DNA from: Syntrophobacteraceae bacterium
GTDB lineage: Bacteria > Desulfobacterota > Syntrophobacteria > Syntrophobacterales > Syntrophobacteraceae
Reading direction: 5' to 3'
DNA: 54,439 bases
Assembly (NCBI GenBank): GCA_013314815.1
Contig: JABUEY010000008.1
Location: 1-54,439 of the forward strand
Under the pieces are notes generated by a model. It saw only the letters and a list, made by a program, of their open reading frames with translations. It was not told the origin of the DNA and did not search any database. The stretch's first letter is position 1; each line of letters starts with the position of its first letter. Of the stretch, positions 3-24,915 are shown one piece after another. A program made the position numbers and the translations under genes.

Positions 3-1562
3 GCTGCGGACGGCCTGGCGCGTGTGACAGGTCGGCCCCAGGTCTGCATAGCGCAGAACGGACCGGGTGTGACCAACTTTGTATCTGCAATCACGGCTGC
101 ATATTGGGCGCATTCCCCCGTGGTGGCCATCACTCCTGAAACGGGATCCATGGGGATTGGGACGGGGGGGTTCCAGGAATTGGACCAACTGCCCATGTTT
201 CATGAGCAGACGGTATACCAGGTGAGGGTTAACCGCGCCGAAAGGATGGCTGAATTGGCAAGGCGGGCCTTTTTTATGGCAAAGAATCTTAACGGGCCGA
301 CGCAGTTGAATATCCCTCGAGACAACTTCTACGGGGAACTCGAAGCGGAAATCTATGGGACGAAGGTGATCCCGCGGGGTGTCGGATCCAGGGATGCTCT
401 CGAGGATGCCGCATGGCTGCTCGCCGAAGCCACATATCCCGTCATTCTGGCCGGCGGGGGCGTGTCCCAGGGCAATGCGCTGGACGAGGTCAGGGCGGTG
501 GCCGAGTACCTGACGGCCCCTGTTGTCAACAGCTACCTGCACAATGATTCCTTCCCCCAGGAACATCATCTCGCATTGGGTCCCATCGGCTACTGTGGAT
601 CCAAGGCGGCCATGCGAACGCTGGCAAAAGCGGACGTGGTGATTGCACTGGGTTCCCGGCTCGGACCTTTCGGCACACTTCCCCAATACGGGATCGACTA
701 CTGGCCCGAGAAGGCCAAGATCATCCAGGTCGATGTCGATCCTCGAGTACTGGGGTTGAGCAGGAAGGTCGAAGTGGCTTCCTGTGCTGATGTGAAGGAA
801 TACGCAGCCGAACTGTTGAGAGTGCTTCGCCTGATGAAGCCGGACCTGGATGTGAACAAGGAGCGTTTGAAGGACATCGACAACGAGAGGAAGACCTGGG
901 CCGATGAACTCGACAGCTGGTCCCAGGCCACGGGAAAACCGATGCATCCGCGGCGCTTCCTTCGAGAGCTTTCCCTGGCCATCCCGAAGGGGAGCATTGT
1001 CGCTACGGACATCGGCAACAACTCATCCATGTGCAATGCCTACTTCAAGTTCAACGGGATACGCCAGCACATTTCGGCCCTTTCCTGGGGAAACTGCGGC
1101 TTTGCCTTTGGAGCCGCCATGGGGGCAAAAATAGGCAGACCGGATACTCCTGTTTTCGCTTTTCAGGGCGACGGCGCATACGGCATCAGCGGGATAGCGG
1201 AAGTCATGACGGCTGTGCGGGAAAATATCCCGATCATTGCCGTTGTTGCCAACAATCTCGAATGGGGCGCGGAAAAGAAGAACCAGATCGACTACTACAA
1301 CAATCGATTTGTGGGAAGCAACCTCTCGGAGAACCCGGATTACGCGGAGCTGGCAAAGGCAATGGGGGCGAACGGATACAAGGTCGAGGATCACAGGGAT
1401 ATTGGCGACGTGGTGCGCGAGGCGGTTGCGTCGGGGAAGCCGTGCGTCATCAATGCAATGATTGAAGGAGGGGAGAGGGTGCTTGCGGAACCGTTCAGAC
1501 GGGACGCCCTGAAGAAGCCTGTCCGCCTTCTGGATAAATACAGGCACTTGAACGTGGATTAA
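3..1562 (+). CDS. xsc: Sulfoacetaldehyde acetyltransferase (5' end outside window)
   Basis: ThDP-dependent enzyme that converts sulfoacetaldehyde plus phosphate into acetyl phosphate and sulfite in the cytoplasm; it is the desulfonation step of C2-sulfonate degradation. The reading frame is open to the left edge, so about 60 N-terminal residues are missing; 519 residues are visible against a usual total near 580-600. A GTG at 24 is internal, because family-like residues (AADGLARV) precede it. Seen: the N-terminal block IAQNGPGVTNF, the PETGSMGIGTGGFQE block typical of Xsc rather than acetolactate synthase, and the ThDP motif GDGAYG...VVANN near the C-terminus. The acetate kinase at 19607 would use its product. 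No taurine aminotransferase or isethionate enzyme is in view. Family assignment is strong; the native substrate source is inferred. Confidence 0.93.
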   Translation, partial: AADGLARVTGRPQVCIAQNGPGVTNFVSAITAAYWAHSPVVAITPETGSMGIGTGGFQELDQLPMFHEQTVYQVRVNRAERMAELARRAFFMAKNLNGPTQLNIPRDNFYGELEAEIYGTKVIPRGVGSRDALEDAAWLLAEATYPVILAGGGVSQGNALDEVRAVAEYLTAPVVNSYLHNDSFPQEHHLALGPIGYCGSKAAMRTLAKADVVIALGSRLGPFGTLPQYGIDYWPEKAKIIQVDVDPRVLGLSRKVEVASCADVKEYAAELLRVLRLMKPDLDVNKERLKDIDNERKTWADELDSWSQATGKPMHPRRFLRELSLAIPKGSIVATDIGNNSSMCNAYFKFNGIRQHISALSWGNCGFAFGAAMGAKIGRPDTPVFAFQGDGAYGISGIAEVMTAVRENIPIIAVVANNLEWGAEKKNQIDYYNNRFVGSNLSENPDYAELAKAMGANGYKVEDHRDIGDVVREAVASGKPCVINAMIEGGERVLAEPFRRDALKKPVRLLDKYRHLNVD

Positions 1563-3925: not shown

Positions 3926-4002
3926 AGCCCAGATCAGCCGCGGCCTGCATTTCGGCAGTTCGAACGAAAGGTATGGAACCCGAAGAACCAGGATCTCAAG
4001 AA

Positions 4003-4512
4003 ATGAAAATCATTCACGTAAGCAGGAATTTCAAGACGCAGGATGTGGATGTGAACACGTTCGACCAGGACGAACCCGTACTGATGGTCGACCTGGACAG
4101 ATGCATCTGCTGCGGATCGTGCCAGTATGCATGCAGGATCGAACATGCCGGCGGGGATGTTCAGGCAGGCAGGCCTCGATCCATCCCCGTAGCGGTGAAA
4201 CACGGCGAATCAGCGAAAAGGACCATGCATCTGCCGCTCTCGTGCAGGTACTGCAATTCTCCGTGCCCCTACTACAGCCTGTACAACTTCTGGACAACCT
4301 GCCCGGCAGGGTTCGAATCGCCGGACCAGGCGGATGCCTGTGACTCCTGTGTCGAAAGGCTGGGAAAGGGCTTCATGCCCGCCTGTGCCACGCGATGCAC
4401 CATGAAATGCATCTACTTCGGATACCCTCGGGACATTGCATTTGTCCTGAATGAGAAAAGACTGAGAGAGATGGGCGACCTGGTCATCCGTGCCCTGGAT
4501 GGAGTGCGTTGA
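4003..4512 (+). CDS. DmsB/NrfC-type 4Fe-4S electron-transfer subunit
   Basis: Ferredoxin-like subunit of 169 residues that would carry electrons to or from the molybdopterin enzyme just upstream. Cysteine clusters visible in order: CICCGSCQYAC, CRYCNSPCPYY, and CDSCVERL followed by PACATRCTMKC. This is the four-cluster arrangement of DmsB-like subunits. An alternative ATG at 3973 would add 10 residues; I prefer 4003 because AGGA lies about 10 bases before it. No membrane anchor gene follows, so the pair probably works in the cytoplasm. Its stop overlaps the start of the next gene by one base, indicating translational coupling with the UPF0280 gene and a shared job. Confidence 0.87.
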   Translation: MKIIHVSRNFKTQDVDVNTFDQDEPVLMVDLDRCICCGSCQYACRIEHAGGDVQAGRPRSIPVAVKHGESAKRTMHLPLSCRYCNSPCPYYSLYNFWTTCPAGFESPDQADACDSCVERLGKGFMPACATRCTMKCIYFGYPRDIAFVLNEKRLREMGDLVIRALDGVR

Positions 4513-5240
4513 TGCTCGCTGTGCGCGAAATCGACCCGCAGGTGTATCGGGGTCTCGTAAGGAACGGGGGGCTGGTCTGTTCGAGGGTAAGGCTCAAACA
4601 GAGCGACCTGCTCATCTCCGCATGCCGTGATTTGAGCAGGGAAGCCATGCCGCTGGTCGTTCATTATCGCGGGCAGATCGAAGATTACATTGCGGTGAAT
4701 CCATTCTTCCTGAGGAGCATGGTTCCTGTCGAAACCGATGAGGGCGCTCCCGAAATCGTCAGGGTCATGATCGATGCAGGGGCGAAGGCGGGTGTGGGCC
4801 CCATGGCTGCCGTGGCGGGGGCCCTGGCCGAATTTGTCGGGCGCGGACTGATGGAATCCAGCCCGGAGATCATCGTGGAAAACGGTGGAGACATCTTCTT
4901 TCATGCATCGTCCAGAAAGGAAGTCCTGCTTCTGGCGGAGAGTTCCCCTCTCAAGGGGTTGAGAATCGCGGTGGGGCCTACTTCGTCTCCGATCGGGATC
5001 TGCACTTCATCGGGAATACTCGGGCATTCGATCAGCTTCGGAAACGCCCACGCCGTTATGATCGTTGCCGCTTCGGCCTCGCTGGCCGATGCCGCGGCCA
5101 CGTCCGTGGCCAACATCGTCAAGGGGGTGTCCGACATCGAAAGGGGTCTCGATAGAGCCAGGGAGATAGGGACCGATGGGGCGGTCATACTCGCCTCAGA
5201 CCGCGTGGGCGCATGGGGCCGGATAGAGATCGTCGGCTGA
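4512..5240 (+). CDS. UPF0280 family protein (ApbE-like fold)
   Basis: A 242-residue UPF0280 protein, the family of methanogen MA1715. Family-typical blocks seen are GVGPMAAVAGA, EIIVENGGDIF and GICTSSGILGHSISFG, with an alanine-rich C-terminal segment (ADAAATSVANIV). In methanogens and many anaerobes the family accompanies DUF39 sulfurtransferases and a ferredoxin partner in sulfide-dependent homocysteine synthesis, where its exact chemistry is not settled as far as I know. Here it sits directly before a DUF39 gene and after an Fe-S protein, so the same module seems to be reused inside a sulfonate locus. Start ATG at 4512 overlaps the upstream stop (TGATG). Relation to ApbE-type flavinyl transferases is structural only. 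Confidence 0.85.
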   Translation: MLAVREIDPQVYRGLVRNGGLVCSRVRLKQSDLLISACRDLSREAMPLVVHYRGQIEDYIAVNPFFLRSMVPVETDEGAPEIVRVMIDAGAKAGVGPMAAVAGALAEFVGRGLMESSPEIIVENGGDIFFHASSRKEVLLLAESSPLKGLRIAVGPTSSPIGICTSSGILGHSISFGNAHAVMIVAASASLADAAATSVANIVKGVSDIERGLDRAREIGTDGAVILASDRVGAWGRIEIVG

Positions 5241-5258: not shown

Positions 5259-6584
5259 ATGTCTAAGAACGGAAAAACCATTTCCGAGATCAACGAGAAG
5301 CTCCAGAAGGGGGAAGCCGTTGTCATGACGGCGATGGAATTCAAGAAGGAAGTGAGATCGGGTTATAAATTCAAGGTTTCGGACGTGGATGTGGTAACGA
5401 CGGGCACCCGGGGAGTCATGTCCGGCACATCAGCAATGCTTGTAATCCCCCTGGGAGAAAAAGGCAGATCCGCTCGAGCTGAAAGGCTTTTCCTGAACGG
5501 AGTTCCCTGTATTCCGGTATGCAATCCCGAAGAGGATTCCGAACTGGTGGATGCCGTCATCTACGGGACTACGGAAAGCTGGGATCATCATGGGCGCTAC
5601 GGAGGCGGGCACGTATTGAGGGATCTCGTGGAAGGCAAAGAAGTTGAGGTGGAATGCCTCACCACCGAAGGCAGGACCGTCTATACGCGCATTACCCTGG
5701 AACAGATCAAGTTCGCCAGGCTGTATAATTTCCGCAATGATTTCCAGAATTACGTCGCGTTCAGCAATATCAGGAACATCAAGTCCTACCGGTTGAATCC
5801 CGCTTCGATCTTCTCCTGCCGCCCGATTCCGCTCCTGAAAGGTATTACCGCCAGCGGCAGCGGAGAGCTGAATCCACTGGAGAACGACCCGCACAGAACG
5901 GTGTTGAAGTCCGGGATGAAGATACTTCTCAACGGGTCGCCGGGGGTCATCATCGGGTACGGGACGCGCAGTACGCCCGCCAAGAAGGCCCTTTTCGTCG
6001 CGGGGGACATGTTCAGTATGGACCCTCAGTATATGGGCGGATTCAAGACCAGCTACGGAGTGGAAGTCACCAACGGCATTGCCGTCCCGTTTCCCATAAC
6101 GGACGAGAAGACTCTTGACGGTCTCTCCCGGTGCCTCGACGAAAATATTCCTCTTCCCGTGGCCGACCTGGCGGACAGGACCGCACTGTGCAATCTCACC
6201 TACGCCGATATCTGGGCCGGGGCGAAGCTGGAAGTGGAGTTCGATCCGGACCGGTGCATCTGCTGTTCATTTCAATGCCCCGCTGAATACTATTGTCCCA
6301 TGGGGGCGATATCGTGGAAGGACAAGCGCATCGACGAAAACCTGTGCGTCGCATGCGGAGCCTGCACAGCGAACTGCATGGGAGGTGCGTTCAAGGGCAA
6401 GGGTGACCTGCCGCGAGGTTCCCTGGGTTCGGTTCGCATCTTCGACCGGAACGTTCCCATCATATTCAGGCAGTCGAACCGGTACAGGGCCGAGAGGATC
6501 GCCACGTACCTCAAGGAACTCATGGAGAGAGGAGAATTTCTGCTCACCGATTCGGATATCGAGTTGACGCTCCGGAGCAAGTGA
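5259..6584 (+). CDS. DUF39 (HcyB/ComF-like) sulfurtransferase-family protein with two 4Fe-4S motifs
   Basis: A 441-residue protein: residues about 8-360 are a DUF39 domain and 335-400 carry two 4Fe-4S motifs (CICCSFQCPAEYYC; CVACGACTANC). DUF39 proteins include L-aspartate semialdehyde sulfurtransferase (HcyB) and, to my recollection, the methanogen enzyme ComF that makes coenzyme M from sulfoacetaldehyde and sulfide. The family landmark TTGT is present, but the following HcyB MCSSG cysteine is Ser here (VMSGTS, residue about 55), and the second HcyB cysteine position reads TVYTR. A Cys at about 133 (VECL) is shared with the paralogue at 7999. With xsc nearby I infer it acts on a sulfoacetaldehyde/CoM-type substrate, perhaps in the degradative direction. 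Good ribosome site GGGAG at 5247. Confidence 0.84.
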   Translation: MSKNGKTISEINEKLQKGEAVVMTAMEFKKEVRSGYKFKVSDVDVVTTGTRGVMSGTSAMLVIPLGEKGRSARAERLFLNGVPCIPVCNPEEDSELVDAVIYGTTESWDHHGRYGGGHVLRDLVEGKEVEVECLTTEGRTVYTRITLEQIKFARLYNFRNDFQNYVAFSNIRNIKSYRLNPASIFSCRPIPLLKGITASGSGELNPLENDPHRTVLKSGMKILLNGSPGVIIGYGTRSTPAKKALFVAGDMFSMDPQYMGGFKTSYGVEVTNGIAVPFPITDEKTLDGLSRCLDENIPLPVADLADRTALCNLTYADIWAGAKLEVEFDPDRCICCSFQCPAEYYCPMGAISWKDKRIDENLCVACGACTANCMGGAFKGKGDLPRGSLGSVRIFDRNVPIIFRQSNRYRAERIATYLKELMERGEFLLTDSDIELTLRSK

Positions 6585-6646
6585 TGTGCGCCGTTCGGGC
6601 AGGATTTTGAACGAGGTGGCCATTGTTCAAGCAGGGACGAATAATC

Positions 6647-8002
6647 ATGAAAGAAGAAAGAAAATCGCAGGTCGACGAGATCTTCGAGACCGAAGCAGGC
6701 AAGTGCATCGAATGCGGAAACTGCCTCTATTCGTGTCCTGTCTACCAGGAATCTTTCGATGAAAGGTTTGTGGCCAGGGGACGAAATCACCTCATCAGGG
6801 AATTGGGCCTGTATGGAAATTCGCTTTCCGGCTTTCAGGAAAAAGGCATTTTCGACAAATGCCTGCTCTGCGGACGATGTGTCTCGGCCTGCCCGAGGGG
6901 AGTAAGGAACGACCTGGTGGTCCTCGCTGCAAGGTCCGAACTGATCAGGCTCAACGGGCTTTCCCTGGGCAAGTCCATCGCCTTTGGGACCCTCATGGCG
7001 GACAAGGAGGCCATGAAGAGGGCGGTCCGTTTTGCATCGAGGTTCCAGTGGATGTTGCCTCTCACAAAACGTGAAAAGCGCAAAGACTTCGAGAAGGTAA
7101 TACGCGAGTCGTCGAAAGTGCGGCATATTCCCAACTTTTTTCTGGGAGCCGCCGCCGGCAGACAGATCCCATCCATTGCGCGGGATTTTTTGAGCGACAC
7201 GGTGGTGGAGCGCAACCCCGGCGTTCCCCGAGAGGAAAGCCCGAAACTGCGGGTTGCCTACTTCTCGGGTTGCGCCACCGAGTTCGTCTTGCCTCACGTC
7301 GGCCGATCCCTCATCTCTTTACTCAACTCGGCGGGGGTCGAGGTTATATTTCCCAAGAACCAGGGCTGCTGCGGCATAGCCATGCAGGCCAACGGAGATA
7401 TCCAAACGGCCAAAGCGGCGGCCCTGAACAATTTCGAGATCTTTTCCGCACTGGACGTCGACATGGTGGTCACCGGCTGTGCCACCTGCGGTTCCACCCT
7501 GAAGGAAGGGTGGAGCAACCTGTTCACAGGCGATCCTCGCCAGCAGGATTTTCAGGAATTTGCGGAAAAGGTCAGGGACATTTCCGAGTTGTTGATCGAC
7601 CTGGCCGACACCGGGCGAATGCAGTTCTGTTCCGTGCTTCCGCCCGGTACGCGCGTGACCTATCACGACCCCTGTCACCTTTCCCGTTATCAAGGCATCA
7701 CCGAACAACCCAGAAGGATTCTGCGCCAGGCTTTCGAAAAGGATTTCATCGAGATGGACGAGAGGGGCTGCTGTGGATGCGGCGGCTCTTTCAGTCTTCA
7801 TAGCTATGAACTGTCCAGGCGAATAGGAAAGGAAAAAATCGACTCCATCGAGCGCACCGGCGCAGACTTGGTCGTGAATACCTGCCCCGGATGCATGATC
7901 CAGCTCGTGGATGGAATCGAGAGGCGCCGCCTGCCGCAGAAGGTGCTTCACCTGGTCGAGGTCGTTAAGCCCATGAAGGAAAACCGCGGGGGTGGCAGAT
8001 GA
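6647..8002 (+). CDS. HdrD/GlcF-like Fe-S oxidoreductase with two CCG domains
   Basis: A 451-residue electron-transfer protein. The N-terminus has two 4Fe-4S motifs (CIECGNCLYSCP and CLLCGRCVSACPRG). The rest holds two cysteine-rich CCG domains: the first includes FSGCATE, NQGCCGIA and GCATCG, the second YHDPCHLS, ERGCCGCGGSF and NTCPGC. In heterodisulfide reductase HdrD/HdrB such domains bind the noncubane cluster that reduces a disulfide of coenzyme M and coenzyme B; related proteins serve glycolate or lactate oxidation. Lying between two DUF39 genes, it is a natural redox partner for a thiol or persulfide reaction. A TTG at 6623 with GAGGT before it is an alternative start adding 8 residues. 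It overlaps the next gene by four bases (ATGA). Confidence 0.88.
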   Translation: MKEERKSQVDEIFETEAGKCIECGNCLYSCPVYQESFDERFVARGRNHLIRELGLYGNSLSGFQEKGIFDKCLLCGRCVSACPRGVRNDLVVLAARSELIRLNGLSLGKSIAFGTLMADKEAMKRAVRFASRFQWMLPLTKREKRKDFEKVIRESSKVRHIPNFFLGAAAGRQIPSIARDFLSDTVVERNPGVPREESPKLRVAYFSGCATEFVLPHVGRSLISLLNSAGVEVIFPKNQGCCGIAMQANGDIQTAKAAALNNFEIFSALDVDMVVTGCATCGSTLKEGWSNLFTGDPRQQDFQEFAEKVRDISELLIDLADTGRMQFCSVLPPGTRVTYHDPCHLSRYQGITEQPRRILRQAFEKDFIEMDERGCCGCGGSFSLHSYELSRRIGKEKIDSIERTGADLVVNTCPGCMIQLVDGIERRRLPQKVLHLVEVVKPMKENRGGGR

Positions 8003-8889
8003 CCGGAAGTAGAAAGCGCGTTTCGGAAATCAACGAAAGGATACTGGCCGGGAAGGCTTCGGTATACACGGAAGAGGACCTGTTGAAGCACCTGGAGAAG
8101 AATGACGACTCCGTCCTCCGGCATGCGGATGTCGTCATCATGTCATTCAGCAGCAGCATATCCGGAGCGGCGGCTATGCTCCTTGTTCCCGTGGCGGGCC
8201 GGGGCTCCTTCACACGTGCGAAAAGCATCCGGCTGGACGGCGTTCCCGGTTACCCGGGGCCTGCTCCGAACGAACGCCTCGGCATCGTGGACAGCCAGGT
8301 ATTTGCCGATCAGAGGGTGGATAACTGGTCCAACGGACTGCTTCCAGGCAAAAAACTGCTGACCGATGTGCTCGAAAACAGGGAAATCCAGGTGGAATGT
8401 CTTTCCCAGGAAGAGGATGACTATCGGAGTTCCTTCGTCACAAGGGAGCTCGAGTACGCAAGAATGGTCACATATAACACATTCATTCCACACACAAGAA
8501 TCAATGAAACATCCAATTCGCATCTGAAAACCATATGCGTCGGAAGCAAGATCCTTCTCAACGGATCAGTCGGAATTGTAGTGGGCGCTGGAACAAGGAA
8601 TGGTTTTAGAAAGAAATCTCTTTCATTATCTGCTGAACTATATGAGATGAATCCAAGCATTATAACAGTAGAAAACGATGATGTGAAATTATCGATTGTC
8701 ATTCCTATACCGGTCATAGATGACCTGGTATGGAATGATTTACTCAACTATTTAAGAGCCATGAAATATTCGGATATTTCCCATTACATGAATGTGAATG
8801 ATTTGAACATGGCTCGATGGATGAAGGACCAGATGAAGCAGGGCCGGTTCAAACTAAACGACTCGTCCAATTTTCCCATCAGCTGGTGA
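7999..8889 (+). CDS. Second, shorter DUF39-family protein without Fe-S domain
   Basis: A 296-residue paralogue of the protein at 5259, starting within the stop of the HdrD-like gene (ATGA). It shares SEINE near the N-terminus, a DGVPGYPG block, VECL (Cys about 134) and KILLNGSVGIVVGAGTRN, but lacks the ferredoxin tail and the GGGH segment. The TTGT landmark is changed to MSFSSS, so the usual catalytic region of HcyB is not conserved. The last 450 bases or so are visibly richer in A+T than the flanking genes and carry rarer codons, suggesting faster divergence or a different origin. It may form a heteromer with the longer DUF39 protein. Function unknown beyond the family. Confidence 0.75.
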   Translation: MTGSRKRVSEINERILAGKASVYTEEDLLKHLEKNDDSVLRHADVVIMSFSSSISGAAAMLLVPVAGRGSFTRAKSIRLDGVPGYPGPAPNERLGIVDSQVFADQRVDNWSNGLLPGKKLLTDVLENREIQVECLSQEEDDYRSSFVTRELEYARMVTYNTFIPHTRINETSNSHLKTICVGSKILLNGSVGIVVGAGTRNGFRKKSLSLSAELYEMNPSIITVENDDVKLSIVIPIPVIDDLVWNDLLNYLRAMKYSDISHYMNVNDLNMARWMKDQMKQGRFKLNDSSNFPISW

Positions 8890-8957: not shown

Positions 8958-9938
8958 ATGAGACGGACGGCGAAGCGATGTGGATGGGTAGTGGCGGTGG
9001 TTTTTCTGTGTGTTTTGGGACTGAATGCACAGGCAGACGCGCAAAAGAAGAAGATTCACTTCGGGTACCTGGTGGCGGACCAGCTCCACAGCCCCGCGGT
9101 AATGATCATGAAGGAAAAGAAGCTGCTGGAGGCTGAGGGGTTTGAGGTTTCGTGGGGCGAGTTTCTTGCCGGGTCGTATCTTATGCAGCACATGACATCG
9201 GGGGAGGTCGACTTCGGAAGCTGCGGATCTGTTCCGGCGATGATCACCCGGGGGCAGGGAGTGGATGTGGTCATCCTTGCCAGTGCAAACACGGAGGGAT
9301 CCAGCATGGTGGTCAAGGACTCCATCCAGTCTCCGAAGGCCCTGGACGGAAAGAGTCTCGGTACCCCGGGCATCGGATCGATCCAGGACGCGATGGTCGA
9401 CATGGTGGCAAAAAAACATGACATCAAGATCGCTCACAAGTTCATGAAAGTCTCCGATATGCCCATTTTTCTTCAGAAGGGGGAAATCGACGGCTTTATC
9501 GCCTGGGCGCCCCATCCCGCGCGAGCCGTCGACCTGGGCTACGGGCACCAGATCCTTACATCGCACGATATCCTCCCCGACCACCAGTGCTGCGTGCTGG
9601 TGACCAAGGGAGAGATGCTCAAGAAGAACCCGGAGACGGCCCGAAAGGTGCTCCAGGTCTATCTGAAAGCGTACGAGTGGTTCCTGGCGAACCAGGATGA
9701 ATCCGTTGAAATAATGGTCAGGGTCACGGGCATGAAAGAAGAAGTAATCAGGGAGGCCATGAAAACGGTGAAGTATCCGTTCCCGCCGTTCTGCAACGTT
9801 CCGAGTCTGAAGCTGATGGTCGACGGACTCGTGGAGAGCGGGAAGATTCAGAAGGGCAACATCACCAGCGTGGACAATTTCATCAGCGACCTGTACCAGC
9901 CCGCTCTCCTGGAGGAACAGGTGGGTAAGAAGCAGTAG
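8958..9938 (+). CDS. ABC transporter substrate-binding protein, sulfonate/nitrate (NMT1/SsuA-like) family
   Basis: A 326-residue periplasmic binding protein with a clear Sec signal peptide: positively charged RRTAKR, a hydrophobic VVAVVFLCVLGL core and a probable cleavage near AQADA. The mature part matches the SsuA/TauA/NMT1 family (HFGYLVADQLHSPAVMI near the N-terminus; EVDFGSCGSVPAMITRG; TPGIGSIQD). A strong AAAGGAG precedes the ATG at 8958. It opens the importer set that continues with one permease and two ATPases. The family takes up organosulfonates, nitrate or aromatic acids; next to xsc a C2 sulfonate is the most likely ligand, which is inference. Confidence 0.88.
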   Translation: MRRTAKRCGWVVAVVFLCVLGLNAQADAQKKKIHFGYLVADQLHSPAVMIMKEKKLLEAEGFEVSWGEFLAGSYLMQHMTSGEVDFGSCGSVPAMITRGQGVDVVILASANTEGSSMVVKDSIQSPKALDGKSLGTPGIGSIQDAMVDMVAKKHDIKIAHKFMKVSDMPIFLQKGEIDGFIAWAPHPARAVDLGYGHQILTSHDILPDHQCCVLVTKGEMLKKNPETARKVLQVYLKAYEWFLANQDESVEIMVRVTGMKEEVIREAMKTVKYPFPPFCNVPSLKLMVDGLVESGKIQKGNITSVDNFISDLYQPALLEEQVGKKQ

Positions 9939-10026: not shown

Positions 10027-10818
10027 ATGAACGACAAACAGAAGGAACAAGTCAAGACGGTCTTATACAACATACTCAGCCTGATCGTCGTTGCCGTGCT
10101 GTGGACCCTTTTCTCTGCGTGGCAGCAGTCCCCCTTTTTCCCGCCTCCGGCTGATATCTGGAAGGCGTTTGTCGGGCTGGCTACCCAGGGAGATATCGAA
10201 GGGATAAGCCTGGCCAGGCACATCTGGGCAAGCCTGATCCGGATTTTTGCGGGGTTCGCGGCCGCCTGCGCGCTGGGGATCCCCCTGGGTCTTGCCATGG
10301 GTCTCTGGCCCAGAATGTACAACCGGACCCGGGCCGTTCTCGAGCCCATAAGGTTTATTCCTCCCATTGCATGGATTCCCATGGCCATCGTTCTCCTGGT
10401 CGGGTTTTCGCGGTACGCGTTTCTGATCTGGCTTGGAGCCTTCTTCCCGATCTTCATTACGACCCTGCTCAGCGTGACCCGGGTCAATCCCGTGCATGTC
10501 AATGTCGCAAAGGTCTTTGGTGCGAGCCGGTCCTATATCATCCGCAAGATTGTCATACCTTCGGTGCTGCCTGACATCGCGACGGGCATGCGCGTGGGTC
10601 TGGGAATAGCATGGATGTGTATCGTGGCTGCCGAAATGATCGGAGGGGAGATGATCGGCGTCGGGCGGCTCATTTTGAAGTATGCGGAACTGATCAGAAT
10701 GGGCGAGATCATTGTTGGAATGCTGGTCATAGGAATCATCGGCTTTCTTATGAATGAAATCTTCATCGTTGTTGAAAAGAGAGTGTTTCGTTGGAGATCG
10801 GAAGTATCCATCGATTAG
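10027..10818 (+). CDS. ABC transporter permease, sulfonate/nitrate (SsuC/TauC-like) family
   Basis: A 263-residue inner-membrane permease with about six hydrophobic segments. It starts with a cytoplasmic stretch followed by IVVAVLWTLFSAW, and the cytoplasmic EAA loop is seen as AKVFGASRSYIIRKIVIPSVLPDI. This belongs to the BPD_transp_1 permeases of SsuC/TauC type. The ATG at 10027 is preceded by GGCAGGGAG. It is the only permease gene here, so a homodimer is expected, served by two different ATPases encoded downstream. Substrate as for the binding protein: probably an organosulfonate. Confidence 0.9.
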   Translation: MNDKQKEQVKTVLYNILSLIVVAVLWTLFSAWQQSPFFPPPADIWKAFVGLATQGDIEGISLARHIWASLIRIFAGFAAACALGIPLGLAMGLWPRMYNRTRAVLEPIRFIPPIAWIPMAIVLLVGFSRYAFLIWLGAFFPIFITTLLSVTRVNPVHVNVAKVFGASRSYIIRKIVIPSVLPDIATGMRVGLGIAWMCIVAAEMIGGEMIGVGRLILKYAELIRMGEIIVGMLVIGIIGFLMNEIFIVVEKRVFRWRSEVSID

Positions 10819-10826
10819 GAGACCAA

Positions 10827-11567
10827 ATGGACAGCCCGCTTCTCGATGTAAGCATGAGCAAGAGTTTTGGGAAGATCGATGTCCTGAGGGACATCAGGTT
10901 CAGAGTCAGGCCCAACGAGTTTCTGGTCGTTGTAGGACCGACAGGATGCGGCAAGACCACCCTGGGCAACATACTCTCCGGGATCGATAAGCCGACGTCA
11001 GGCCACGTCAGGATCATGGGCGAGGATGTGAATCCCCACATCCACAATATTTCCTACGTGCTCCAGGAACCATCCTGCATCCCCTGGTACACCATGATGC
11101 AGGATGTGACCATGGGCCTGGAGATCCGGGGTGTGGGACGTGCCGAGGCGGTTTCGCGAGGAAGCGAGGTCATCAAACTGGTCGGCCTGGAAGGATATGA
11201 GAACTACTACCCGTGGCAGATCTCGGGAGGCATGAAACAGCGGGTTGCCATCGCAAGGGCCTATGCGACAAGCCCGGATCTGCTGATCATGGACGAACCT
11301 TTCGGGCACCTCGATGCCCAGACGCGTTACCTCATGCAGATCGAGATCATGAGAATCTGGGAACAGGACAGGAAGACCGTTGTGTTCATTACGAACAACA
11401 TCGAGGAGGCGGTCTACCTGGCGAGCAGGATCCTGGTGCTGACGAAGCTCCCCGCAACGATCAAGAAGGAGTATGTCGTTGATATTCCGAGGCCTCGAGA
11501 TCTTACCGATGAGAGGTTCCTCGAGGTCCGGGCGGAGATCACTCAGCAATGCGAGATTGTGGAATGA
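10827..11567 (+). CDS. ABC transporter ATP-binding protein (SsuB/TauB-like), first copy
   Basis: A 246-residue ATPase with Walker A GPTGCGKTT, Q-loop LQEPSCIPW, signature ISGGMKQRVAIARA and Walker B LLIMDEPFGHLD. The EEAVYLASRILVLT segment after the H-loop position (here NNIEEA, where His is replaced by Asn) is typical of the sulfonate/nitrate family except for that change. I chose the ATG at 10827 with TAGGAG before it; a TTG at 10791 would overlap the permease. It lies 8 bases after the permease stop. The Asn in place of the switch histidine hints that this copy may be the weaker ATPase in a heterodimer with the next one. Confidence 0.9.
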   Translation: MDSPLLDVSMSKSFGKIDVLRDIRFRVRPNEFLVVVGPTGCGKTTLGNILSGIDKPTSGHVRIMGEDVNPHIHNISYVLQEPSCIPWYTMMQDVTMGLEIRGVGRAEAVSRGSEVIKLVGLEGYENYYPWQISGGMKQRVAIARAYATSPDLLIMDEPFGHLDAQTRYLMQIEIMRIWEQDRKTVVFITNNIEEAVYLASRILVLTKLPATIKKEYVVDIPRPRDLTDERFLEVRAEITQQCEIVE

Positions 11568-11585: not shown

Positions 11586-12335
11586 ATGTCCGCCAAAAAG
11601 CCGAAAATTACCATCAAGAACCTGAGTAAGTACTTCGATGACCTCGTGGTCCTCGACGATATCAGCTTCGACATCTACGATGGAGAATTCCTCTGCGTGG
11701 TCGGACCGACAGGATGCGGAAAGACCACCTTCTGCAACGTGGTCACCAGGCTGCTGCCGTCCACCAAGGGCTCGGTGACCGTGGGGGCGGAAGCCATCGA
11801 TTTCAAAAAGCACAACGTTTCGTTCATCTTTCAGGAGCCTTCTTGCCTGCCCTGGCGAACAGTTTGGGACAACGTCAAGATCGGACTGGAGATCAAAGGC
11901 TATCCGGAACCGGAAATCAGGGAGCGGGTACAGAATGTGCTCGAGATGACAGGGCTGACCCCTTTCAAGGACTTCTTTCCCAACCAGATCTCCGCCGGGA
12001 TGAAGCAGCGGGTGGCCATTGCCAGGGCCTTTGTCACGGAACCGGACATGCTGCTCATGGACGAACCCTTCGGCCAGCTCGACACGAGCACCCGTTTCAG
12101 CATCGAAAACAGCCTGGTCAGGCTCTGGGAGAAAACGAAACAGACAGTGATCTTCGTGACACACAACCTTGAAGAAGCCGTGTACCTGTCGGAACGAATA
12201 CTGGTGCTCACCCAGAAGCCTACGAAGATCAAGAGCGAGGTGGGGGTACAGCACCTTCTCCACCCGCGCGACATCGCAGACCCCGAGTTTGTGAGGATCA
12301 GGCGCCAGGTGACGGATCTGGTGAGGTGGTGGTGA
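11586..12335 (+). CDS. ABC transporter ATP-binding protein (SsuB/TauB-like), second copy
   Basis: A 249-residue ATPase clearly related to the gene just upstream. It has Walker A GPTGCGKTT, Q-loop FQEPSCLPW, signature ISAGMKQRVAIARA (second signature Gly changed to Ala), Walker B LLMDEPFGQLD and an intact switch His in FVTHNLEEAVYLSERILVLTQ. Together with the first copy, which lacks the switch His, it probably forms an asymmetric ATPase dimer in which each subunit supplies part of the sites. AAGGAAA precedes the start. Part of the importer operon. Confidence 0.9.
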   Translation: MSAKKPKITIKNLSKYFDDLVVLDDISFDIYDGEFLCVVGPTGCGKTTFCNVVTRLLPSTKGSVTVGAEAIDFKKHNVSFIFQEPSCLPWRTVWDNVKIGLEIKGYPEPEIRERVQNVLEMTGLTPFKDFFPNQISAGMKQRVAIARAFVTEPDMLLMDEPFGQLDTSTRFSIENSLVRLWEKTKQTVIFVTHNLEEAVYLSERILVLTQKPTKIKSEVGVQHLLHPRDIADPEFVRIRRQVTDLVRWW

Positions 12336-12414
12336 TTCAGGCCGGAAATGGAAGCGACGCTTGTTCGAATTTCCCGGCTGCGGGTCCACCGGATGTGATC
12401 GAAAAGGGAGTTTT

Positions 12415-13458
12415 ATGAAGCCGAAAGAACGATTCCTGAGACGTCTCAAGGGGCAGGATGTGGACAAAGTCCCGGCAGGGTGCACAACGGCATACGGCGT
12501 CGTGGACCTTATGAAAAGGTGCGGCTGCGAAAGGCCTCTTGCGGATGTGGACCCCGCCTGCATGGCCGGACTCTCCATGGCCGGCCATACGATCGCGGGG
12601 TTTGACTGGGTCAAGGCCATGGGGTGGGATATAACGGCTGTCAGCGAGGCTCTGGGATGCACTCTCGGGGAGCCGGCCATTGACTCGCAATACTATATCG
12701 CGTCGCATCCCTTTGCTCAATCCATCGAAAACCTCGAATGCCCTCGGGACCTGTTGAGTCGTGGAAGATTTCCTGCCTACCGGGAGCAGTTCCGGCTGCT
12801 CAAGGAAAAGGTCGGCAATGACCTGGTGATCTTCGGGATGTCGGAAGGACCTTTCACCTGTGCTGCAAACCTCGTGGGAACCGACCGGATGATGCGGGCG
12901 ACCATCAAGGAACCCACCTTCGTGGAAAAGGCCCTCGATGTCACTGCCGAGGCTCTGATCCAGGTTATCCGCTTCGCCTTCAGCAACGGTGCGGACTATT
13001 TCTGTATGGCCGATCCCACATCGGGCGGCGACCTGCTGAGTCCGAAGAGCTGGGAACGGATCGTGAGCCCGGTGATCCGAAGGATTGTCAACGCCGTCGA
13101 CGGACCCATAGTTCTGCACATCTGCGGCAATATCGACAAGATCATCCCTTCCATGTGTGAAACCGGCATTGTGGGAATCAGCCTGGAAGAAAAGACCGAT
13201 CTGAAGGCGGCGATCGAGACTGCGAGAGCCAGGGGGGTCAGGGTGTTCGGAAATGTCGCAGCCGCGTCCACACTTTTCATGGGGACCGAGGAGGATTGTT
13301 ACCGGGAGGCCATGGCAGCACTCGAGAGTGGAGTCGACTTCCTGGCCCCGGGATGCGGCATAGCGCCGAATTCGCCTCTCGAAAACGTCCTGCAACTGAG
13401 GAGGGCTCGTGACGATTTCCACCAGGATAAGCAGGCTGGACGGCCGGAATCAAGCTGA
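12415..13458 (+). CDS. MtaA/MtbA-like methylcobamide:coenzyme M methyltransferase homologue (UroD family)
   Basis: A 347-residue UroD-fold methyltransferase. It keeps the zinc ligands of MtaA/MtbA at the expected spacing: His about 235 and Cys about 237 (LHICGN) and Cys about 314 (APGCGI). The N-terminus KERFLRRLKGQ and the segments MAGLSMAGHTIAG and FGNVAAASTLFMG also match this subfamily. Known members move a methyl group between a corrinoid protein and coenzyme M thiolate. In a bacterium with xsc and DUF39 genes, the reverse reaction (demethylation of methyl-CoM or a similar thioether sulfonate onto the corrinoid protein encoded next) is a reasonable proposal. Start ATG 12415 follows AAGGGAG. 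Family assignment strong, direction and substrate inferred. Confidence 0.86.
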   Translation: MKPKERFLRRLKGQDVDKVPAGCTTAYGVVDLMKRCGCERPLADVDPACMAGLSMAGHTIAGFDWVKAMGWDITAVSEALGCTLGEPAIDSQYYIASHPFAQSIENLECPRDLLSRGRFPAYREQFRLLKEKVGNDLVIFGMSEGPFTCAANLVGTDRMMRATIKEPTFVEKALDVTAEALIQVIRFAFSNGADYFCMADPTSGGDLLSPKSWERIVSPVIRRIVNAVDGPIVLHICGNIDKIIPSMCETGIVGISLEEKTDLKAAIETARARGVRVFGNVAAASTLFMGTEEDCYREAMAALESGVDFLAPGCGIAPNSPLENVLQLRRARDDFHQDKQAGRPESS

Positions 13459-13617
13459 TGGACTCCATGCCGCGGCGACGGACACGAGATGGCGCTGCGT
13501 ATCCTCGAATGGTCCGGCTCCAAACGAAACGGAAGGCTTTTGGCACGGCGGTCGAGCATTCCGAAAGGCAGGACCGCCTCGACACATGAATGTGAAAACC
13601 CTCGGAGGGAACTTCCT

Positions 13618-14271
13618 ATGCTGCCTCTGGAAGAAATACTGAAGAAATTACACGATGCGGTGGTCGGCTTTGACGAAGCGGGAGCGGCACAGGCTGCCCG
13701 GCTGCTGATAGAGGGAGGGTACGATCCCCTGGAAGGCATTATGCACGGCCTGTCCACGGGCATGGATACGGTGGGAGCCCTCTTCAAGCAGCAGGAATAT
13801 TTCGTCCCCGAAGTGCTCTTGTGCGCCGAAGCGATGAACGCCGGGATGGAAGTACTTCGACCGCACCTGCAGGCCTCAAGCACCCGCACACTGGGAACAA
13901 TCATCCTCGGTACGGTGCAGGGTGACGTTCATGACATCGGGAAGAACATCGTAAAGATGATGCTGGAGATCGGCGGCTTCGACGTGCATGACCTGGGCAA
14001 CAATGTGCCCCACAAGAGGTTCGCCGAGGAACTGGCACGCACCGATGCAGATCTCGTCGGCGTTTCCGCAATGATGACGACCACTATGATGGGCATGCGG
14101 AGCCTTATCGGAATGGTAAAAGAAACGAAACCTCATGTCGGGGTTCTCATTGGAGGTGCGCCGGTGACCAGGGAGATCGCCAAGATGTTCAATGCCGACG
14201 GATATGCCGACTCGGCCGCCGACGTGGTGGGCGAGGCAAAAAGAGTCATGGCTGCCGTGAAAAGCGCCTGA
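13618..14271 (+). CDS. Corrinoid protein of a methyltransferase system (MtaC/MtbC-like)
   Basis: A 217-residue B12-binding protein. Residues 1-85 are the helical cap domain (QAARLLIEGGYDPLEGI, EVLLCAEAMNAGM) and about 95-217 the cobalamin-binding Rossmann domain with the base-off/His-on motif DVHDIG and the later GGAPVT segment. It would carry the methyl group between the two UroD-type methyltransferases that flank it. The start at 13618 has GGAGGGA seven bases before it; upstream in-frame sequence is not family-like. A 159-base gap separates it from the MtaA-like gene, without a recognisable signal. Confidence 0.93.
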   Translation: MLPLEEILKKLHDAVVGFDEAGAAQAARLLIEGGYDPLEGIMHGLSTGMDTVGALFKQQEYFVPEVLLCAEAMNAGMEVLRPHLQASSTRTLGTIILGTVQGDVHDIGKNIVKMMLEIGGFDVHDLGNNVPHKRFAEELARTDADLVGVSAMMTTTMMGMRSLIGMVKETKPHVGVLIGGAPVTREIAKMFNADGYADSAADVVGEAKRVMAAVKSA

Positions 14272-14346: not shown

Positions 14347-15387
14347 ATGTCGAAGAAAATGCTTATTGAAGCACTTCGCTGCAACCGAACACCCAGGGCA
14401 CCGTGGTTTCCTTATGCGTGCATCAATTGCGCGTACCTCCTGGGTGAGACGGCCGACAGGTATCTGCAGGACCCGGAACTCATCGCAAAAGGCGTCGAAG
14501 CAGCCGCGAAAAGATACCGGGCGGATGGAATTCCGCTCGTCTTCGACCTTTCCGTCGAAGCCAACGCAGTGGGATGTGAACTGAGCTGGTGGCCGGACAA
14601 TGTTCCTTCCGTCGCGACTCACCCCTGTGCGCAGATGGTCTCGCCCAGGCAGCTCGGCCTCAAGCTTCCGACAAAAGACTCAGGAAGATGGCCCGTTCTG
14701 CTCGAGGCGGGAAAACTCGCAAAACCTCGACTCGATGCACTGGATTGCGCAATGGTCGGTTTGTACTGCGGCCCCCTCACCCTCGCCTCACACCTGGCTG
14801 GAGTGCGCATTTTTACGGATTTCTATAAGAATCAGGAGTTTGCTCATGAAGTCCTGGAGTTCGCAGCGGAGGTGAACGCGGTCTCGGCGGCCTTCTACGC
14901 GGAACTGGGATGTGAGGTGATCGGAATCGTTGACCCGGTGGCGTCCCAGGTCAAATCGGCGACTTTCAGGGAATTCGTGACTCCCTACGTGCAGAAGGGC
15001 ATCCAGGTCATTCACGATGCCGGTGCGACTTCCATGTTCCTCATCTGTGGGGACTGTACCAAGGTGATGGAAGAGGTGTGTACCATCGGAACTCAAAGCT
15101 TTGCCATCGATGAGCAGCTGAACCTCGGCTACGTGCGTGATATGGCTCTGCGGCATCGAGTCGGATTTGCAGGCAATCTGAAGCTCACCCTGTCCCTCAG
15201 CCTCGGCGTGATTCCTCCACGCGAGGACGCACTGGTGAGCCTTGCCGCCGGCGGGACACACGGGTTCGTTCTGGCCCCTGGCTGAGACCTCCCCTACGAT
15301 GTTCCGGCGGAACACATCGACCAGGTCGTCCAGGCCATGGACAGTTTCTACGAAAACTACGCACCATATCCGGATTCTACATCCTGA
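14347..15387 (+). CDS. Selenocysteine-containing UroD-type corrinoid methyltransferase (TGA at 15283 read as Sec)
   Basis: A 346-residue UroD-family methyltransferase if the in-frame TGA at 15283-15285 is read as selenocysteine. Up to that codon there are 312 residues ending LAPG; after it the frame continues DLPYDVPAEH and on to a second TGA at 15385. LxPG-C-xxP is where this family has its C-terminal zinc-ligand Cys (compare APGCGI in the paralogue at 12415), so Sec replaces exactly that residue, and the full length (346) matches the paralogue (347). The upstream ligand motif reads LICGD (Leu 232, Cys 234) instead of HICG. A hairpin lies 12 bases after the TGA. It probably moves the methyl group to or from the neighbouring corrinoid protein. 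A sequencing error or a nonsense mutation is the alternative. Confidence 0.8.
15298..15318 (+). promoter_or_regulatory. Candidate bacterial SECIS hairpin downstream of the UGA codon
   Basis: Starting 12 bases after the UGA, GAUGUUCC (15298-15305) can pair with GGA-ACAUC-like sequence at 15309-15318 around a GGC loop, with two bulged bases on the 3' side. The loop guanines are about 21 bases after the UGA, within the range of bacterial SECIS elements read by SelB. Hand-folded; a folding or bSECIS search would be decisive. Confidence 0.55.
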
Positions 15388-15406
15388 GATCGAAGAGGAA
15401 AGAGTC

Positions 15407-15805
15407 ATGGTCGACAAAAAAATCCGAATAGACGTGCTTACCCTGGACAGTGTGCAGTGTGCGGCGTGCGGTTACATGATGGAATCCATCGCCGCTCTGC
15501 CCGATGACGTCCAGGGCATGATCGAATACAGGGAATGGCCCATAAAAACCAAGGAAGGCATTGCCAGGTTCATGGAATTGAAGGGAAAGGTGCTGCCGAC
15601 CATATGCATCGAGGGAGATCCCGTTTTTGCGAGCTGTATTCCCCAGTACGAGGAGCTCATCGAGGAGATGGCCAGAAGAGCCCCCAGCCCCGAAGCGGCG
15701 GAAAAACTCATGGCACTGCGGCATGTGGGCTTTCAGTTCGACAAGGTGGGAGAGAACCTGAAAAAGGCTGGATCGGGATTGAATACCCGGGAAGGTCAGA
15801 AATAA
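15407..15805 (+). CDS. Thioredoxin-fold protein with CAAC motif
   Basis: A 132-residue small protein. The start ATG at 15407 follows GAAGAGGAAAGA and lies 19 bases after the true stop of the selenoprotein gene. The N-terminal 85 residues look like a thioredoxin fold: a beta-strand IDVLTLDS, then VQCAACGYM with a CxxC pair (about 15-18), and a KVLPTICIEGDPVF segment with a cis-Pro-like LPT. Proteins of this kind often sit in methyltransferase clusters; a role in keeping a thiol, selenol or cobalt partner reduced is plausible but not shown. The C-terminal 40 residues are charged and unassigned. Confidence 0.7.
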   Translation: MVDKKIRIDVLTLDSVQCAACGYMMESIAALPDDVQGMIEYREWPIKTKEGIARFMELKGKVLPTICIEGDPVFASCIPQYEELIEEMARRAPSPEAAEKLMALRHVGFQFDKVGENLKKAGSGLNTREGQK

Positions 15806-15860: not shown

Positions 15861-16883
15861 ATGCAGGATACCATCGACATCGTCCTTCTCACGGGTTTTC
15901 TGGGCAGCGGCAAGACCACGTTCTTGAATCGCCTGGTCGAAGTCATGCCCCGGGAGTACCGGGTTGTGATTCTGATGAACGAATTCGGAGAAATCGGAAT
16001 CGATGCCTCGATTGTGAAGGGGGATGACCACGAGATCCTCGAGATCAACAAGGGGTCCATCTTCTGTGTGTGCGTCAAGACGGATTTCATCAGGACGATG
16101 CACAGGATTGCCTGTGATTTGAGGCCGGACGTGCTGGTCATCGAATCCACCGGTGTGGCCAATCCCGGGGATCTCAGGCGGGACCTCTCTCTTTCCGTCT
16201 TCCAGAACCGGTTTTCCCTGATCGAGCAGATCTGCATCGTCGACGCGGTGAACTTCGAAGACGCCTACAACGCATTTTCATCGGTGGAGAAGCAGATCGA
16301 GTCTTCCACGCTGTTCATCATCAATAAAGCGGACCAGGCATCAGCTGACAGAATCCGACGGGTCAGGGAGATCGTTTCCCAGCATCATCCTTCACCGGTG
16401 TTTGTCGAGTCGGTGTTCTGCGGGATCGATTTCGATCGTCTGCTGTCCAAACTGCGTCCTCCAGGACAGGAAAGGGAGTATTCGTTCGATGCGGGAAGGA
16501 CGGGAGGGAGTCTGACTCCCGACGAACTGGATCAGATCGTCGACGGAATGCTCTCGGATCCCTTCAGGCAGATCAGCCGGCCCGATCTTCTCGTGTCCGC
16601 TGCCTATGCCTGGCATGGCGGAAGCACGGAGGAGTTCTCGAAGGTTCTCCAGGATTTGCCTCGAGGCATCGTGAGAGGCAAGGGCTTTGTATCGGATTGC
16701 GGCAGAACGTACCTGGTGAACCTGGTTATGGAGCAGTGGGAACTGGAAGAAGTCGACCTGTCCAATGATCGAATGCATCCGCTTGACAGGCTGGTTTTCA
16801 TATTTCCGCCCGAATTGACGAACGCCGTCGACGAGGTCACGGCCAGGCATGGTCAGCTGGAAAAGCTCACCGGAGGCAGTTGA
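15861..16883 (+). CDS. CobW/COG0523-family GTPase
   Basis: A 340-residue G3E-family P-loop GTPase. Visible motifs: Walker A GFLGSGKTT (about 12-20), switch/Walker B region VLVIESTGVANP, and base recognition NKAD (about 154-157). The family metal motif GCxCC is altered to GSIFCVC, a variant with two cysteines. A C-terminal CobW domain contains WHGG and the terminal LVFI block. COG0523 proteins deliver metals or help load cobalamin-type cofactors; next to corrinoid methyltransferase and RACE genes a role in cofactor insertion or reactivation is likely. The next gene begins 6 bases after its stop. Confidence 0.85.
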   Translation: MQDTIDIVLLTGFLGSGKTTFLNRLVEVMPREYRVVILMNEFGEIGIDASIVKGDDHEILEINKGSIFCVCVKTDFIRTMHRIACDLRPDVLVIESTGVANPGDLRRDLSLSVFQNRFSLIEQICIVDAVNFEDAYNAFSSVEKQIESSTLFIINKADQASADRIRRVREIVSQHHPSPVFVESVFCGIDFDRLLSKLRPPGQEREYSFDAGRTGGSLTPDELDQIVDGMLSDPFRQISRPDLLVSAAYAWHGGSTEEFSKVLQDLPRGIVRGKGFVSDCGRTYLVNLVMEQWELEEVDLSNDRMHPLDRLVFIFPPELTNAVDEVTARHGQLEKLTGGS

Positions 16884-16889
16884 AGGGCA

Positions 16890-17588
16890 ATGATGGAGAC
16901 GGGACCATTGGTGAGGGGCGCTTTCGGGTCGAAGGCATGGAATACGGTTTTGCTTGGAGTCGTTCCGTTCGATCCCGATATTGAATCTCTTGCCTCCAGG
17001 CTCCGTGTGACACCCGACAACCCGCGCAGAAAAGAACTCGATGCAATGGTTCGAGATGCCGCAGCGATAGCCGCACCCAAGGCGTTCTATGGTTGGGCGC
17101 ACGTCGAACACCAGGGGGACGGCCAGGTCATGGTGGAAGGCGAAACCTTTGTCAGTCGAATGCTTCGATCCGCCTTGGGCGATGCTGAGGTTGTTCTTCC
17201 CTTTGTCGCCACTGCAGGAATTGAACTTCAGTCCTGGGCGGCCTCGGCATCGAGTCCTCTTCACGCGTACTGGTCGGACGTCATCATGGACGAAGCCCTG
17301 AGGTGTGCACTCACCGCCCTCGAAAGACATGTCGACGCAAGGGTCGGAGGCAGGAAAACCCGTTGCATCAAACCCGGCATTCCGGCGGATTGGCCGGTCA
17401 CCGAGCAGAGAAAACTTTTCGCTCTTCTTGGGAATATGAAGAAGGCGGTGGGAGTGGAGTTGACCGACGCGTGCCTGATGATTCCGCTTAAGACCGTCTC
17501 GGGTCTGAGATTCCAGACCGATTCGGAAGTGGAGGGCTGCACATGGTGCCCACAAAAGAACTGCCGCCACAGAAAAAATCCACCTTGA
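16890..17588 (+). CDS. Vitamin B12-dependent methionine synthase activation-domain protein
   Basis: A 232-residue protein resembling the stand-alone relatives of the MetH activation domain found in acetogens and other anaerobes. Seen: PFVATAGIELQSWA in the middle, MDEALRCALTALERHV, a RCIKPGIPADWPV block near the typical RxSPGYxxWP position, and a C-terminal GLRFQTDSEVEGC region ending CTWCPQKNC, a Cys-rich tail of this subgroup. The domain normally binds SAM and supports reductive remethylation of cob(II)alamin; here it probably helps reactivate the corrinoid protein together with the RACE protein that follows. Confidence 0.8.
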   Translation: MMETGPLVRGAFGSKAWNTVLLGVVPFDPDIESLASRLRVTPDNPRRKELDAMVRDAAAIAAPKAFYGWAHVEHQGDGQVMVEGETFVSRMLRSALGDAEVVLPFVATAGIELQSWAASASSPLHAYWSDVIMDEALRCALTALERHVDARVGGRKTRCIKPGIPADWPVTEQRKLFALLGNMKKAVGVELTDACLMIPLKTVSGLRFQTDSEVEGCTWCPQKNCRHRKNPP

Positions 17589-19584: not shown

Positions 19585-19606
19585 GCGGATTTTGAGGTGA
19601 ATGGAA

Positions 19607-24861: not shown

Positions 24862-24915
24862 CCCCGAACAGTCGGTTTCGGGAGGGAGCCGCAATAGGAT
24901 ATTGGAGACGAAGTA

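Follow-up and report, generated by a model that had tools for sequence, protein, structure and literature searches.

The window analysed here, a stretch of 54,439 nucleotides from a Syntrophobacteraceae bacterium (GenBank assembly GCA_013314815.1, contig JABUEY010000008.1, positions 1 to 54,439), encodes two divergent DUF39 proteins, DUF39-A and DUF39-B (hereafter A and B), which by tree position, and in the case of A also by profile score, belong to the coenzyme M (CoM) synthase branch of this family (MMP16/ComF, COG1900d) and not to the HcyB branch. The chance that A and B form an obligate heteromer acting as a CoM synthase run in reverse, within an operon for the catabolism of CoM or methyl-CoM, is put at about one half (0.5). 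The wider proposal, in which anaerobic bacteria would possess a dedicated (methyl-)CoM catabolic pathway whose key enzyme is a reverse CoM synthase that duplication has divided into two subunits with one active site, falls a shade below even odds. The two genes are as follows:

5259..6584, + strand: DUF39-A, MMP16/ComF-type subunit of 441 amino acids with an inserted 2x[4Fe-4S] ferredoxin (TIGR03287 399.2 bits; alignment and tree)
7999..8889, + strand: DUF39-B, shortened MMP16-type partner of 296 amino acids (PF01837 86 bits; TIGR03287 122.7 bits)

Both open reading frames (ORFs) are open and both products are members of PF01837, with A scoring 298 bits. The cut-off of the TIGR03287 profile (methanogenesis marker 16) is 363.95, so that A is an MMP16 member by score and B only a derived relative. 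In methanogens MMP16 is ComF, the CoM synthase, which forms CoM via reductive thiolation of sulfoacetaldehyde (PMC12068725). A preliminary description of this DNA had reported that both proteins lack the cysteines of HcyB, and this is correct: the Cys of the MCSSG motif has become Ser in both (MSGTS in A, SISG in B), and the DCYP segment shows no conservation. HcyB membership was rejected, as Cys54 (MCSSG) and Cys131 (DCYP) are absent in both proteins and both fall outside the HcyB clade. The loss is not new, however, having already been published for MMP16/COG1900d, whose conserved cysteines are known to sit away from the HcyB positions (PMC12068725); A and B lack the HcyB residues because they belong to this branch. 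Two canonical HcyB genes are found elsewhere in the genome, one of which adjoins a short protein resembling the NIL/ferredoxin partner in sequence, an arrangement as in Desulfovibrio (PMC5764234). A and B would thus not be needed for homocysteine, and its synthesis is an unlikely role for them.

The ancestry of the pair was examined with eight named bacterial relatives (deposited as Desulfobacteraceae, Desulfovibrio, Nitrospirae, Proteobacteria and Burkholderiaceae), two bacterial proteins designated A2 (genomes G383 and G503), six archaeal MMP16s and twelve HcyB proteins. HcyB is split from all MMP16-type proteins at 100/100, and A, B and A2 from bacteria group together in one clade (100/99) nested among the archaeal MMP16s. 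Within it each of A and B is monophyletic (100/100), and the two are sisters (97/79) with A2 outside, therefore B is a duplicate of A within a rare bacterial MMP16 branch and not a separate family. A and B both descend from one bacterial MMP16/ComF-type protein by duplication and joint degeneration, with B diverging faster than A as judged by branch lengths. The separate branch with different chemistry proposed in the preliminary description is supported, though ComF, which it had named only as a reference for such a phylogeny, proved to be the branch of A itself. The archaeal references are credible CoM-synthesis proteins, since in one (L080) MMP16 lies beside genes for cysteate synthase (551.9 bits, cut-off 324.9) and a fused ComDE, and mcrA is present in 4/6 of their genomes.

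A-type proteins are rare. Of 395 genomes drawn evenly from the phylum, one has A (that of the window) and two have A2; in a closer sample of 59 relatives, three have A, each also with B. When A was sought more widely, in the order to which G060 belongs and in the phylum of G070, only those genomes plus one archaeal-type MMP16 were returned. Loci L033-L038 from archaea were initially retrieved as relatives but encode canonical HcyB proteins, and they served as outgroup only; short DUF39 matches in G055 and G044 are HcyB fragments and not B. The genome of locus L029 encodes another MMP16-like protein (L079, 6156-7487) that lacks a B partner; it lies near a further HdrD-like protein and groups among archaeal MMP16s. 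In the phylum of the Nitrospirae-labelled relative, locus L115 (3075-6520) carries an apparently complete archaeal-type CoM-synthesis neighbourhood comprising an MMP16 with GPCPNERLG and SGCGE, a COG2000 protein, a GTPase and an ATPase; a bacterial CoM maker, a transfer and a misbinned archaeal contig are all candidate explanations.

The two subunits have lost different parts of the ancestral protein. When columns invariant in A2 and archaeal MMP16 were scored with the ferredoxin left out, 7 were kept in both proteins, 29 in A only, 9 in B only and 4 in neither (odds ratio 0.11, Fisher p=0.002; the columns are taken as independent, so the p value is a guide only). The B-only columns cluster in the F..A...PGPxPNERLG loop, and the A-only columns fall in TGT..MSG, YGGGH, RN....NY, SGxGE.NP..ND, GGF.TS.G.E and the C-terminal part. 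Thus A retains the core, the ferredoxin and the GGF motif and has lost the PGPxPNERLG loop, which is partly deleted in the A protein of L031, while B retains the loop as PGPAPNERLG and has lost the other three. The ferredoxin cysteines are all A-only, in line with the earlier observation of two 4Fe-4S motifs in A and none in B; all eight are present in 8/8 A proteins. In A2 proteins the loop and the core are found within one chain, and the A2 genomes (G383, G503) contain no B gene, only A2 and one HcyB each. To judge from the alignment, such a pattern would be expected if a gene had been duplicated and the work of one enzyme then shared out between two subunits, and the two chains may touch so that the loop of B completes the active site of A. 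The two-subunit enzyme suggested in the preliminary description is supported by these observations, and the complementary loss is better evidence for it than a shared cysteine. B could instead be a regulatory or assembly pseudo-enzyme that binds A without completing the active site, as its faster divergence and the loss of the conserved core might indicate. This is quite improbable given that PGPAPNERLG and a VPVxxRGxFTRA stretch are invariant in 9/9 B proteins, exactly where A has degraded, and that no B accompanies the A2 enzymes, whose loop is intact. A structure model of B was good (predicted local distance difference test, pLDDT, 87), but Foldseek gave no significant match and VIA-align reached only Z 5.4 among the candidates of Foldseek, so that the predicted fold adds no functional hint. 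A sequence search for a solved DUF39 core found none.

The shared cysteine in question is that of the VECL motif (Cys133/Cys134), which had been put forward as a new catalytic thiol used by both proteins. It is present in both window proteins and invariant in B (9/9), but it does not hold as a feature of the pair: only 5/9 A proteins have it, the column reading C G C C C C Y I, plus W in L031. With G, Y, I or W in 4/9 A proteins, the residue was rejected as a shared catalytic one, and a VECL-based mechanism is hardly probable at all. Besides the eight ferredoxin cysteines, A is marked by Cys84 (9/9) and Cys187 (8/9). Two cysteines of MMP16 are not kept, as Cys95 (GPCPNE loop) disappears with the loop in A and is Ala in B (PGPAPNE), and Cys202 (SGCGE) is replaced in 7/8 A proteins (SGSGE) and deleted with its segment in B. 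Cys202 is not essential in M. acetivorans MMP16 (PMC12068725).

The pair belongs to a set of 19 genes that run in one direction over 21 kb, separated by -4 to 161 bp (estimated starts), in the following order:

24..1562, + strand: Xsc, sulfoacetaldehyde acetyltransferase (PRK07525 740.9 bits, cut-off 620; TIGR03457 656.9 bits, below cut-off 676.4, with the 5' end and about 60 N-terminal positions cut by the contig edge)
1652..3925, + strand: molybdopterin oxidoreductase-like subunit, FdhA-like (PF00384, PF04879, PF01568; true start probably about 1724)
3954..4512, + strand: iron-sulfur (FeS) protein, DsrO/HmcB-like (weak DsrO, FDH-beta and HmcB matches; Cys motifs in the translation; start approximate; counterpart in L026)
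4509..5240, + strand: UPF0280/COG2122 protein (PRK04334 family 260 bits; sulfur-trafficking family of MA1715)
5259..6584, + strand: DUF39-A, as above
6623..8002, + strand: HdrD/GlpC/LdhH-like protein (PF02754, Fer4)
7999..8889, + strand: DUF39-B, as above, overlapping the HdrD-like gene by 4 bp
8958..9938, + strand: sulfonate-type ATP-binding cassette (ABC) substrate-binding protein (SsuA family TIGR01728 142.6 bits, below cut-off 163.5), first of a four-gene importer
10027..10818, + strand: ABC permease, TauC/SaoP-like
10791..11567, + strand: ABC ATPase, TauB/SaoA-like
11586..12335, + strand: second ABC ATPase
12361..13458, + strand: UroD1, MtaA-like corrinoid:CoM methyltransferase (PRK06252 311 bits, cut-off 244)
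13489..14271, + strand: methyltransferase corrinoid protein (PF02310, PF02607; TIGR02370 190.8 bits)
14347..15396, + strand: UroD2, second MtaA/CmuA-like protein and candidate selenoprotein
15407..15805, + strand: small Cys-containing protein (an unclassified ORF of similar size has the same place in the L026 genome)
15861..16883, + strand: CobW-type GTPase (PF02492)
16890..17588, + strand: MetH-activation-domain-like protein (PF02965 27.5 bits)
17716..19584, + strand: RACo-type corrinoid reductive activase (PF14574, PF17651)
19601..20902, + strand: acetate kinase (PF00871; TIGR00016 435.5 bits, cut-off 293.4)

Downstream, at 22109-27249, glutamate synthase-like domains are split across several ORFs, with ferredoxin and pyridine-nucleotide reductase domains.

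The preliminary description ended at position 8889 and did not include Xsc, acetate kinase, the sulfonate importer or the MtaA-like genes, a context that points to CoM. In the proposed pathway, CoM or methyl-CoM would be imported through the sulfonate-type ABC transporter, and the methyl group of methyl-CoM would be taken off by the MtaA-like and corrinoid proteins. The heteromer, with A supplying the catalytic core and ferredoxin and B the PGPxPNERLG loop, would then catalyse coenzyme M + H2O -> sulfoacetaldehyde + sulfide + 2 e-. This reversed reaction needs an electron acceptor, a role that the HdrD-like protein and the molybdopterin/FeS module, together with UPF0280, may fill. Xsc would convert sulfoacetaldehyde to acetyl phosphate and sulfite, acetate kinase would use the acetyl phosphate to form ATP, and the sulfite would be handed to dissimilatory sulfite reductase.

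The HdrD-like protein between A and B, identified as such in the preliminary description, is indeed HdrD/GlpC-like, with two CCG and two ferredoxin motifs, and 18 Cys are invariant across 10 homologues. The molybdopterin oxidoreductase-like protein adjoins in most relatives. Neither Cys nor selenocysteine is found at its expected Mo-ligand position, which reads RFFPxPFG in this protein and five aligned homologues; by analogy with NuoG/QrcB it may be an electron-transfer scaffold, or it may use another ligand. UroD1 has 39.8% identity to M. mazei MtaA, its nearest solved kin, and when aligned to 4AY7 it keeps the zinc ligands (HxC as HIC, APGCG); it scores 315 against MtaA_Meth, below the cut-off of 400, while passing that of PRK06252. 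UroD2 contains an in-frame TGA at 15283-15285, where its L026 relative has Cys (LAAGCDLPYDVP), with the frame open to about 15396 and a hairpin beginning 11 nt past the TGA. This codon is a candidate selenocysteine site in a UroD-family methyltransferase, in which the usual His of the Zn motif is Leu (FLICGD).

Across nine genomes A is followed by B, and the HdrD-like protein lies between them in 8/9. Where the contigs extend far enough, the molybdopterin/FeS genes and UPF0280 adjoin A/B, the one exception being L029, at which UPF0280 was not found; the window and L026/L086 share the same order from the molybdopterin gene to the RACo activase. Sulfonate-type ABC genes are near A/B in five (window, L026, L028, L030, L031/L110) and UroD/corrinoid genes in four (window, L026, L032, L031/L110). 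Divergent sigma-54-dependent regulators, possibly substrate sensors, lie just upstream of the molybdopterin gene in L027 (4588-6006) and L032 (4730-6217). In L028 the gene after B encodes SauS, an acylating sulfoacetaldehyde dehydrogenase (594.1 bits, just below the cut-off of 600). Two unrelated sulfoacetaldehyde enzymes (Xsc, SauS) at the same pathway step are the strongest pointer to the substrate. The same chemistry could act on a different small sulfonate, thiol or aldehyde, by desulfuration or thiolation, with the CoM link being coincidental. The exchange of Cys95 and Cys202 for Cys84 and Cys187 in A could reflect a change of substrate, the transporters are not of one type in all genomes (ABC vs TctA/TctC) and Xsc is not always present. 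This is rather doubtful when set against the occurrence of Xsc and SauS in the operons of different genomes and the kinship of UroD1 to MtaA.

As to direction, A and B may instead be a bacterial CoM synthase using imported sulfonates, with CoM as the methyl acceptor for the MtaA-like protein and Xsc draining excess sulfoacetaldehyde. A lies above the CoM synthase cut-off, the MtaA-like protein keeps the CoM-activating Zn ligands, and SauS with the importer in L028 could supply sulfoacetaldehyde from sulfoacetate, so synthesis is possible for L028 especially. As a general account it is unlikely. None of the bacterial genomes yielded an mcrA, so that methyl-CoM lacks its usual use and has no known sink; acetate kinase and Xsc in one co-directional run indicate energy gain; and the added HdrD/molybdopterin electron module would not be expected for synthesis. 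The ATPase, GTPase and COG2000 protein that travel with MMP16 in CoM-making archaea (PMC12068725) are present with three archaeal MMP16s (L081-L083) and at L115 but at none of the A/B loci. The presence of dsrA in 9/9 A+B genomes means that sulfite has a use.

Several points weigh against reverse CoM synthesis. In L028, SauS and the ABC importer could also serve to make CoM from sulfoacetate, and we know of no experiment showing ComF to be reversible. Bacterial A lacks the MMP16 Cys95 and, in 7/8, Cys202. Xsc lies within the A/B operon in the window only; in G061 it probably serves taurine, because it adjoins an aminotransferase. No Xsc near the score of the family was found in the A+B genomes G001, G021 and G070, and no SauS was seen at their loci, where the contigs are short. 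The structure model of A is poor (AlphaFold, 8 sequences, pLDDT 42), which leaves the A:B complex to be inferred, and the named relatives are all metagenome-assembled genomes. Xsc occurs in 5/9 A+B genomes vs 2/56 relatives without A/B (p=0.0003), but this enrichment was not relied on because the background is from one phylum and the nine span several; within the sampled relatives alone it is 1/3 vs 2/56 (p=0.15).

Compared with known systems, A resembles MMP16/ComF (MJ1681, M. acetivorans MMP16; PMC12068725) in its DUF39 core, inserted 2x[4Fe-4S] ferredoxin, MSGT in place of MCSSG and shared clade, and the loci share a UPF0280 neighbour in several cases (L080, L081 and L083 among the archaea). 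The bacterial enzyme differs in its split into two subunits with complementary losses, in lacking Cys95 and mostly Cys202, and in its HdrD and molybdopterin/FeS partners, homologues of which were not seen beside the archaeal MMP16s; it also sits with genes that consume sulfoacetaldehyde and not with those that produce it. HcyB, or L-aspartate semialdehyde sulfurtransferase (COG1900a, MA1821; D. vulgaris DUF39, PMC5764234), shares the PF01837 family and a COG2122 partner with A/B, but differs in having the Cys54 and Cys131 motifs, in its separate clade, and in being encoded by genes of its own in this genome. The Xsc/SauS pathways of taurine and sulfoacetate degradation share the sulfoacetaldehyde hub, Xsc and acetate kinase with the window; unlike them, the window operon has no taurine aminotransferase or isethionate enzyme that could be found, and the DUF39 pair, of a thiol-forming or thiol-removing type, stands in that place. 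Type 1 mlp clusters (PMC10418091) similarly combine MtaA-like proteins, a corrinoid protein and a RACo-type activase in anaerobic bacteria, with a selenium link. In the window these genes are linked to DUF39/HdrD and sulfonate genes, the likeness is one of gene families, and UroD1 is nearer MtaA than the approximately 30% given for type 1 mlp proteins.

The family, and the absence of HcyB cysteines in its MMP16 branch, are already known. A search of a paper library did not find the bacterial two-subunit form, its gene cluster or the proposed CoM-degrading pathway, and a full-text search of that library found no described pathway for CoM degradation. Most methanogens make CoM, as do anaerobic oxidisers of methane and alkanes. 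If the proposal is true, a cluster of this kind, with acetyl phosphate, sulfite and sulfide as its products from CoM, would form a link between methane-cycling archaea and the reducers of sulfate and sulfite. The A/B pair would also give a naturally dissected case of the COG1900 mechanism, which is poorly understood, as the sorting of motifs into A and B suggests which parts are needed once per active site and that the active site may be built across subunits.

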